A stretch of 12,524 nucleotides of DNA from Candidatus Schekmanbacteria bacterium RIFCSPLOWO2_02_FULL_38_14 (GTDB lineage: Bacteria; Schekmanbacteria; GWA2-38-11). Location: contig MGDH01000006.1 of assembly GCA_001790855.1 (NCBI GenBank), forward strand, positions 1 to 12,524, written 5' to 3'. Numbering within the stretch: the stretch's first letter is position 1; each line of letters opens with the position of its first letter. The notes beneath the pieces were generated by a model. That model ran no database searches. It was not told the origin of the DNA and saw only the letters and a list, made by a program, of their open reading frames with translations. This document shows positions 4,653-5,513 of this stretch, piece by piece. Made by a program: the position numbers and the translations under genes.

Positions 4653-4680
4653 CTGACAGCTATTGGCTATGAGCTATCAG
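4653..4680 (+). repeat. Heptamer array 1 (YTATNNG), upstream of tRNA-Ser(UGA)
   Basis: Four uninterrupted 7-bp units: CTGACAG, CTATTGG, CTATGAG, CTATCAG. They have the orientation YTATNNG on the plus strand and run directly up to the hairpin that abuts the tRNA gene. An upstream TTTTTCATTATAA (4631-4643) recurs before the next tRNA array at 5212-5224. Confidence 0.65.
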
Positions 4681-4681
4681 T

Positions 4682-4698
4682 ATTCGCCGAAGGCGAAT
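4682..4698. repeat. Perfect small palindrome/hairpin at the 5' edge of tRNA-Ser(UGA)
   Basis: ATTCGCCGAAGGCGAAT is a perfect 7-bp inverted repeat around GAA, ending three bases before the tRNA. No T run follows, so it is not a standard terminator. It resembles small dispersed extragenic palindromes. It could affect 5' processing of the tRNA precursor; this is inference. Confidence 0.6.
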
Positions 4699-4701
4699 CC
4701 A

Positions 4702-4789
4702 GGAGGGATGGCCGAGTGGTTGAAGGCGGCGGTCTTGAAAACCGTTTCCCGGTAATCCCGGGACGTGGGTTCGAATCCTACTCCCTCCG
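4702..4789 (+). tRNA. tRNA-Ser(UGA)
   Basis: An 88-base class II tRNA. The acceptor GGAGGGA (4702-4708) pairs with TCCCTCC (4782-4788), with discriminator G4789 as expected for serine. The anticodon loop CTTGAAA holds TGA at 4736-4738. A long variable arm is present (CCCGG pairing with CCGGG) and the T-loop contains GTTCGAATC. The CCA end is not encoded and must be added. It reads UCN codons, mainly UCA. It lies downstream of serS, between heptamer arrays. Confidence 0.97.
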
Positions 4790-4799
4790 TTAAAACTAA

Positions 4800-4834
4800 C
4801 TTATGACTTATAACCTATGACTGATAACTATCAG
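4800..4834 (-). repeat. Heptamer array 2 (inverted orientation), between tRNA-Ser(UGA) and the four-helix-bundle gene
   Basis: Five contiguous in-phase units on the plus strand: CTTATGA, CTTATAA, CCTATGA, CTGATAA, CTATCAG. Most read CNNATRA, that is TYATNNG on the minus strand, the orientation opposite to array 1. The array begins after AAAACTAAC, which also follows the second serine tRNA, and ends five bases before the start codon at 4840. Confidence 0.65.
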
Positions 4835-4839
4835 GGATT

Positions 4840-5193
4840 ATGGAATTGTTCAGATTTTTGGGATGGCAGGTTTATAAAGATGCAAAAGAACTATTCCAAC
4901 TTGTGTACAAGGTTGTTTCAAAACTCCCAAAGGATATAAGATTTGAACTGGGTAGCCAAATAATCAGGTCTTCTTTTTCTGTCATACTAAATATTGCTGA
5001 AGGTAGCGGAAAGAATTCAGACAAAGATCTAAATAGATATTTAGATATTTCTATTGGCTCATTAAGTGAAACAGTGGCAGGAATGGATGTTCTCCATGAT
5101 AACCATTTTATAAATAAAGAGGATTTTAATCTGGTAGCTAAAAGTGCTGAGAGTATTTCTAAACAATTGGGCGGGTTTAAGAAAAAATTATAA
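4840..5193 (+). CDS. Four-helix-bundle protein (23S rRNA intervening-sequence/Avd-like family)
   Basis: A 117-residue, Lys/Arg-rich, all-helical protein with the hallmarks of the S23/TIGR02436 four-helix-bundle family. It has an aromatic-rich first helix (LGWQVYKDAKELFQLVYK), then SQIIRSSFSVILNIAEGSG with the family signature NIAEG at 51-55, and YLDISIGSLSET around 67-78. Relatives are encoded inside 23S rRNA intervening sequences, and the diversity-generating-retroelement accessory protein Avd shares the fold; these bind nucleic acid as pentamers in Avd. Here the gene is not in an rRNA but between two tRNA-Ser genes, bounded on the left and right by heptamer arrays in inverted orientation. 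The ribosome binding site is weak (AGGG three bases before ATG), and an array lies where a promoter would be. Function is unknown; a role tied to the surrounding repeats is inference. Confidence 0.88.
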   Translation: MELFRFLGWQVYKDAKELFQLVYKVVSKLPKDIRFELGSQIIRSSFSVILNIAEGSGKNSDKDLNRYLDISIGSLSETVAGMDVLHDNHFINKEDFNLVAKSAESISKQLGGFKKKL

Positions 5194-5218
5194 AATCATA
5201 GACAACTGACATTTTTCA

Positions 5219-5300
5219 TTATAAGTCATCAGTCAAAAGTTATTTGTTATAGGTTATCCATCATGGGTCATAAATTAGGTTATTAGTTATTAGTTATAGG
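5219..5300 (+). repeat. Heptamer array 3 (TTATNNG), upstream of tRNA-Ser(GCU)
   Basis: Eleven 7-bp units in phase apart from one 5-base unit (TTAGG, 5275-5279). Examples are TTATAAG, TCATCAG, TTATTTG, TTATAGG, TCATGGG and two TTATTAG. All read TTATNNG-like on the plus strand, the same orientation as array 1 and opposite to array 2. The array starts within TTTTTCATTATAA (5212-5224) and ends ten bases before the tRNA. Confidence 0.7.
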
Positions 5301-5309
5301 TTAATGTTT

Positions 5310-5399
5310 GGAGAGGTGGCCGAGCTGGCTGAAGGCAAGCGCCTGCTAAGCGTTTGTACTGGGAGACCGGTACCCAGGGTTCGAATCCCTGCCTCTCCG
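5310..5399 (+). tRNA. tRNA-Ser(GCU)
   Basis: A 90-base class II tRNA. The acceptor GGAGAGG (5310-5316) pairs with CCTCTCC (5392-5398), with discriminator G5399. The anticodon stem AGCGC/GCGTT closes the loop CTGCTAA with GCT at 5345-5347, which reads AGC/AGU. The variable arm is long and the T-loop contains GTTCGAATC. CCA is not encoded. Together with the upstream tRNA-Ser(UGA) it forms a serine set behind serS. Confidence 0.97.
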
Positions 5400-5410
5400 T
5401 TTAAAACTAA

Positions 5411-5513
5411 CCTGTAACTTATAACTTATGACTAATGACTCTTAAATTATAGTCAAATAGTTATAGGTTATCAGTTATAAGTTAGTTATAAGTTATTGGT
5501 TATCTGTTATTGG
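5411..5513. repeat. Heptamer array 4, two inverted arms without a gene between them
   Basis: The left arm (5411-5438) has CCTGTAA, CTTATAA, CTTATGA, CTAATGA. After about 22 irregular bases, the right arm (5461-5513) has TTATAGG, TTATCAG, TTATAAG, TTAG, TTATAAG, TTATTGG, TTATCTG, TTATTGG. The arms can base-pair. The layout is that of arrays 2 and 3 without the four-helix-bundle gene. The last two units (5500-5513) lie inside the pilZ-type gene and supply its stop codon. It also sits at a convergent tRNA/CDS end and could help transcription stop. Confidence 0.7.

Follow-up and report, generated by a model that had tools for sequence, protein, structure and literature searches.

The locus described here raises a simple question: why should the gene for a small four-helix-bundle protein, lying between two serine tRNA genes of a Candidatus Schekmanbacteria genome, sit between inverted arrays of a short tandem repeat, and why should the same arrangement recur next to it with no gene inside? 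The window, which is the whole stretch of DNA analysed (12,524 nucleotides), is an entire contig of a 2.68 Mb genome available in 43 contigs. The comparisons reported below suggest an unrecognised two-part repeat system, its novelty being provisional on the literature covered, and we think that the window probably holds one copy of such a selfish system, composed of a unit carrying an S23 gene and of gene-less hairpins. The features of the locus are as follows.

3263–4597: serS, upstream of the tRNA-Ser/S23 cluster
4660–4680, + strand: forward heptamer array before tRNA-Ser(UGA), reading CTATTGG CTATGAG CTATCAG
4702–4789, + strand: tRNA-Ser(UGA), a neighbour of the S23 unit
4799–4829, − strand: reverse heptamer array forming the left arm of the S23 unit, 10 bp 5′ of the start codon
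4840–5193, + strand: four-helix-bundle gene of the S23, or 23S rRNA intervening-sequence, family (117 aa, PF05635)
5219–5303, + strand: right (forward) arm of the S23 unit, with units at 5219, 5240–5253 and 5279–5303
5309–5400, + strand: tRNA-Ser(GCU), a neighbour of the S23 unit
5405–5513: gene-less hairpin with the same heptamer as the S23 arms (reverse arm 5411–5438, forward arm 5461–5513)
5500–5892, − strand: PilZ-domain ORF, its 3′ end overlapped by the last forward array

Heptamers occupy four gaps in this region, and their period-7 self-similarity was matched by 0, 2, 0 and 0 of 1000 dinucleotide shuffles, the gap reached by two shuffles being that of the left arm at 4799–4829. Periods other than seven are low in all four gaps, with the exception of a lag of 11 in the fourth. 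The first-pass annotation had every gap filled in phase by units of consensus YTATNNG; the arrays are real and the heptamer period stands, but the consensus is tighter (YTATNAG) and the filling is imperfect, with a degenerate stretch (5261–5278) between the forward arrays 5219–5260 and 5279–5303 that make up the right S23 arm, and a break of phase at 5482–5486 within the last forward array. The array at 4660–4680 has just three clean units. The order of orientations is as that annotation gave it (forward, tRNA, reverse, gene, forward, tRNA, reverse, forward), and so are the position of the S23 gene between inverted arms and the repetition of this arrangement, without a gene, as the hairpin to the right of tRNA-Ser(GCU).

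The natural unit of this layout is a reverse arm, a gene and a forward arm. The tRNA genes are indeed bracketed by arrays, as had been described, but the brackets are a by-product of adjacent units, because each tRNA lies between two units of this type. The gene-less hairpin folds as RNA with a predicted energy of −33.2 kcal/mol compared to −17.3 for shuffled sequence (z −4.8); single heptamer arms folded alone are uninformative, as expected, and an Rfam search of 4500–5700 recovered the tRNAs and no other RNA family. We note that the same contig contains a HEPN-domain gene (10861–11250) and a ribbon-helix-helix gene (11888–12142), small genes of a toxin-antitoxin-like kind.

The S23 four-helix-bundle proteins are a family with solved structures and, to our knowledge, no known function. 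The window protein is a clear member, scoring 96.4 bits against PF05635 (E 1.4e-27, cut-off 33.8) and 94.9 bits against TIGR02436 (cut-off 24), and its structure is predicted with high confidence (AF2, pLDDT 96.7). The model superimposes closely on the crystal structures of XCC0516 (2gsc, TM 0.93) and BT_0352 (2rld, TM 0.83), entries that contain five chains each, and less closely on Avd of diversity-generating retroelements (DGRs; 4dwl) and on a chain of the DGR reverse-transcriptase complex 8ub7 (TM 0.78 for both). Eight residues are invariant or nearly so (Q40, R43, S47, N51, E54, G55, S74 and E77), and conservation of the polar ones, i.e. all but the glycine, suggests a functional site. 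Five S23 proteins taken as examples are mildly basic (pI 7.8–9.6). No nuclease or transposase domain is recognisable in S23, which counts against the explanation that we favour.

Are arrays a general property of S23 genes? Relatives from many phyla were collected by sequence and profile searches (97 genes after removal of most duplicates), and a gene was scored as flanked if a period-7 array with a score of at least 7 was present on both sides. This holds for 46 of 92 S23 genes and for 7 of 155 other ORFs of the same loci, these controls being unmatched for mobility or size; leaving out L164, a duplicate of L045, the S23 count is 45 of 91. Period 7 is dominant in this test and period 8 comes next, with the remaining periods near background. 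A separate sample from one genus, centred on Mucilaginibacter phenanthrenivorans, has arrays of period 7 or 8 on both sides of 76 out of 110 S23 genes, compared to one out of 125 other ORFs, and in a third sample, of annotated plasmid genes that are mostly cyanobacterial, ten of eleven S23 genes have a clear array on one side or both. The expectation of the first-pass annotation that four-helix-bundle genes lie nearer to heptamer arrays than random genes is thus strongly borne out in all three samples, and the contrary outcome that it named, arrays with no link to these genes, is not general; yet about one third to one half of the S23 genes have no clear arms by the scoring used, and this too counts against our explanation. 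The arms mostly lie 3–80 bp from the start and stop codons of the gene, and gene and arms almost certainly constitute one unit.

Several further features of S23 loci were seen. Plasmid S23 genes flanked by heptamers or octamers occur inside host gene clusters, in the order cas6-S23-cas4 (L406 and L411) or between Cas10/Cmr2 and Cmr3 (L412), and an array-flanked one separates two ribonucleotide reductase genes (L414). Some S23 genes form head-to-head divergent pairs with no clear arms by score (L088/L097/L104 in G011; L174 and L077–L079 in G038). Genome G038 has about twenty S23 copies, many at contig ends, and the three compared have about 90% identity, which would suit a recent multiplication. 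At L149 (G037:C131:2127-2435) the S23 match is part of an open frame of 615 codons, which may reflect a fusion or a missing stop.

The repeats that make up the arms vary widely, and include TTATNAG, GTTGTTA, GTTAATT, ATGAACY, ATTCACT, ACGAGCC, GACTATG, CCTTTTA and CGCTTCC. The earlier picture of a heptamer as the repeat of this system therefore survives as to tandem heptamers, but the sequence differs with each S23 subfamily and the unit is sometimes an octamer. What the arms share is their pairing, the left arm being the reverse complement of the right. In the multi-phylum set the similarity of inverted arms is 5.16 of 7 positions compared to 3.41 for permuted partners (SD 0.105; 0 of 10,000 permutations), and it exceeds the similarity in direct orientation for 56 of 60 S23 genes; the genus sample gives 5.45 compared to 3.61 (0 of 5000), and octamer arms 6.44 of 8 inverted compared to 3.91 direct. 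The GC-rich repeats (ACGAGCC and CGCTTCC) pair likewise. Exceptions with arms in direct orientation are found in Pseudanabaena galeata and Gemmatirosa. Octamer-armed subfamilies, equally well paired (e.g. CTTTCGGA), are represented at L003, L075, L085, L091, L095 and L173 and at L314, L318, L320 and L324, and the arms at L153 and L160 look like nonamers.

Repeat type goes with protein subfamily rather than with the host. In the multi-phylum set, the more alike two S23 proteins are, the more alike are their repeats (Mantel rho 0.63, 0/2000), and within the genus the repeat of an S23 gene resembles that of the nearest S23 protein in another genome (similarity 5.41) more than those of other S23 genes in its own genome (3.46), with single genomes holding several S23 genes with different repeats. 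Host-specific repeats as the cause were considered and rejected, as the repeat follows the S23 protein in 38 of 39 cases in the genus. The match between repeat and subfamily needs no more than the inheritance of gene and arms together; recognition of the repeat by the S23 protein would explain how the arms stay matched despite variation in single units.

Gene-less arrays are numerous in the source genome (G000), in which a three-unit YTATNAG pattern has 134 matches compared to 7 for the reversed control; these correspond to about 55 places, nearly all of them intergenic, and the arrays also bracket or adjoin tRNA-Ser(CGA), tRNA-Gln and tmRNA. This genome encodes five S23 genes and one fragment, and only the window gene has YTATNAG arms, the other genes being flanked by different repeats, by octamers or by a weak array. 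Among 31 genomes surveyed the pattern is strongly expanded in G000 and in a family relative (G001, 202 matches), both S23-bearing, and is not expanded in the order relatives G002 and G003, which have no S23 gene. A second hairpin family of the source genome, with the heptamer CTRTAAG (C-type), has several copies with a homologous loop.

If the gene-less hairpins are part of the S23 unit, then ATGAACY hairpins should be found dispersed in genomes whose S23 genes have ATGAACY arms, as in Mucilaginibacter phenanthrenivorans, and be missing from other genomes. The comparison covered 15 S23-bearing genomes: ATGAACY arrays gave 188 and 269 matches in the two that have arms of this type, 4 in one other and 0 in the remaining twelve, and the reversed control gave 0 matches in the same 15. 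The test of dispersal thus covers two heptamer types, YTATNAG and ATGAACY. Genome G031 has 16 adjacent opposite-strand pairs in the orientation of the S23 gene arms and none in the other orientation. Its hairpins have common arms of about four heptamers and loops of 14–137 nt that are mutually unrelated; the gene-less hairpins of G031 therefore did not arise simply by loss of the gene from gene-bearing units, which counts against our explanation. Compared to MITEs, the C-type copies share both ends and loop and the G031 copies share ends only, with no definable target-site duplication.

Orthologous serS-tRNA loci, compared as the first-pass annotation had proposed, were found in gene-bearing, gene-less-hairpin and array-free states. 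The order tRNA-Ser(UGA), arm, S23, arm, tRNA-Ser(GCU) recurs in MAGs labelled Nitrospinae (L037) and Nitrospirae (L052), each with an arm homologous to the left S23 arm of the window, and both contigs begin near the left end of this stretch. A Nitrospinota MAG (L179) has a gene-less heptamer hairpin between the same two tRNA-Ser genes, a Nitrospiria MAG (L180) has octamer-type inverted repeats in its tRNA spacers and, farther on in that cluster, a related S23 gene between two other tRNA-Ser genes (L038), and an order relative without S23 genes (L178) has tRNA-Ser(UGA) without arrays. Six S23 genes in all lie between two tRNAs. Within the genus, one spacer is 37–48 bp long with no repeats in four genomes and 86–194 bp elsewhere, mostly with a hairpin, and at a conserved convergent gene pair (L254:3210-3324; also L267, L268, L270, L272 and L279) the hairpin heptamers differ between species, with both arms changing together. 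Because homologous sites differ in both respects, the presence of hairpins and their repeat type change over time; different heptamers at the same site are explained at least as well by replacement in place as by fresh insertion. At one orthologous site in the genus, only 7 of 17 genomes have a hairpin whose heptamer agrees with that of their own S23 arms; this is not significant (p 0.18, with incompletely sampled S23 sets) and counts against our explanation.

The explanation that we favour has two parts. First, an S23 gene would be carried in the loop of inverted short tandem repeats, which are 7-mers or, in some subfamilies, 8-mers; secondly, that genome would hold, dispersed among its intergenic regions, gene-less hairpins that share the repeat and its orientation. 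The S23 protein, with its five-chain relatives and Avd fold, may recognise its own repeat, in the form of DNA or of folded RNA, and both gene-bearing and gene-less hairpins would then be copied to, or maintained at, new sites, the cutting and copying probably being done by host or other enzymes. We consider it likely that the protein acts in trans on the hairpins; whether it is needed for their spread is finely balanced, and we lean slightly against. The broader proposal, that S23 proteins are the sequence-specific factors of an unrecognised class of element, with each subfamily reading its own 7- or 8-base repeat and driving the spread of hundreds of hairpins or their rewriting in place, we offer tentatively and with rather more doubt. 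The fold shared by the model and Avd possibly hints at an RNA or cDNA step in the spread.

The strongest rival is an element that hides at the RNA level and does nothing more, its arms forming a processing or protecting stem in stable-RNA operons and its protein having no action on dispersed hairpins. This would suit the observation that, where tRNAs lie no more than 200 bp from an S23 gene, they share its strand in 18 of 18 loci (the window at 4702–5400 and 17 others), as well as the cleavage of the stem of the Coxiella intervening sequence by RNase III (PMC4990558) and the good RNA folding of gene-less hairpins. However, it leaves unexplained why gene-less hairpins that share a heptamer and an orientation number in the hundreds elsewhere in the genome, and also the match between repeat and subfamily within one genus, in which none of the 110 S23 genes is near a tRNA, and we judge this account unlikely.

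A little less probable again is a regulatory role, in which an S23 regulator uses the heptamers as operators or as sites on RNA and the hairpins, having spread by other means, are kept for autoregulation and a regulon. The short distances of the arms from the S23 start and stop codons speak for it, as do gene-less hairpins, which often abut start or stop codons, and the mildly basic character of the proteins; but the genes flanking YTATNAG arrays in the source genome are of varied kinds (RuvB, phosphofructokinase, aminotransferases and others) with no shared theme, the presence of a hairpin differs among congeners at an orthologous spacer, and the same site has different repeats in different species. 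Improbable, in our view, is that the repeats are independent hot spots similar to STRR or GGGAATC repeats and that S23 is one of the genes inserted in them. Arrays away from S23 do exist, and two reports describe such arrays without S23 (PMC4679880, PMC4692102), but insertion into host arrays would make the repeat follow the host, whereas it follows the protein, with different repeats at S23 genes of one genome, and control ORFs are rarely bracketed. Chance in low-complexity, AT-rich spacers, suggested by the AT-rich repeats of the window, is scarcely credible given the shuffles, the controls with other periods and the like pairing of GC-rich repeats, and is refuted by the permutation tests of arm pairing.

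If S23 proteins are indeed sequence-specific factors of this kind, this would unite the 23S rRNA intervening sequences, the TAACTGA- and GGGAATC-type heptamers and the S23 family with its lack of an assigned function. The function of S23 and the spread of heptamers are two puzzles that gain one shared, testable answer from the match of repeat to subfamily and from the dispersal of the cognate heptamer in the genomes examined. These findings also present an unusual code, of many proteins and many 7- or 8-base words, with which to ask how nucleic acid might be read by a helical pentamer of small subunits.

Among known systems, the closest homologue is the 23S rRNA intervening sequence. That of Coxiella burnetii has a terminal stem of 28 bp, and three tandem heptamers (GACAGAT) stand just 5′ of the S23 ORF (PMC4990558); insertions in CPR rRNA genes likewise encode the S23 family (PMC11270868). 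The window unit encodes the same protein family and, like these sequences, has its ORF within terminal inverted repeats, here the inverted heptamer arms, with tandem heptamers upstream; unlike them, it lies outside any rRNA gene, between two tRNA genes, and such units occupy spacers of tRNA and protein genes, have dispersed gene-less relatives and vary in repeat with subfamily. Avd shares the fold but only 8% identity, the window protein scoring 25 bits with the Avd model, for which the cut-off is 80, and no reverse transcriptase gene was seen at the window locus.

Dispersed tandem heptamers in intergenic regions have been reported before. TAACTGA repeats occur in Beggiatoaceae, cyanobacteria and Bacteroidetes and their horizontal spread has been reported with the comment that 'no mechanism is evident' (PMC4679880); read on the opposite strand and in another phase (TTATCAG), this heptamer fits the YTATNAG of the window. 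Xanthomonas has about 70 convergent inverted pairs of GGGAATC (PMC4692102). These repeats and the cyanobacterial STRR heptamers resemble those of the window as 7-bp tandem intergenic units, but the main texts of the two papers name no S23 gene and give no mechanism of spread, whereas a cognate gene is identified here for two heptamer types. We note that Xanthomonas campestris, with its approximately 70 GGGAATC pairs, also encodes the S23 protein XCC0516, and the papers found draw no link between them. Nothing in the literature searched ties S23 to dispersed heptamers.

The closest analogy is with REPIN/RAYT systems, and the parallel with REP/RAYT drawn in the first-pass annotation fits in this sense, although the S23 protein itself is no RAYT. 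The protein of those systems is a Y1/HUH (TnpA-REP) transposase and their arms are single REP palindromes, whereas here the gene encodes a PF05635 four-helix bundle, no transposase was found among 20 genes beside arrays in the source genome, and the arms are tandem 7- or 8-mers. What the two have in common is a gene bracketed by repeats, many gene-less inverted pairs with variable loops dispersed in the same genome, observed here with the cognate repeat for two heptamer types, and a repeat type that tracks the type of protein.
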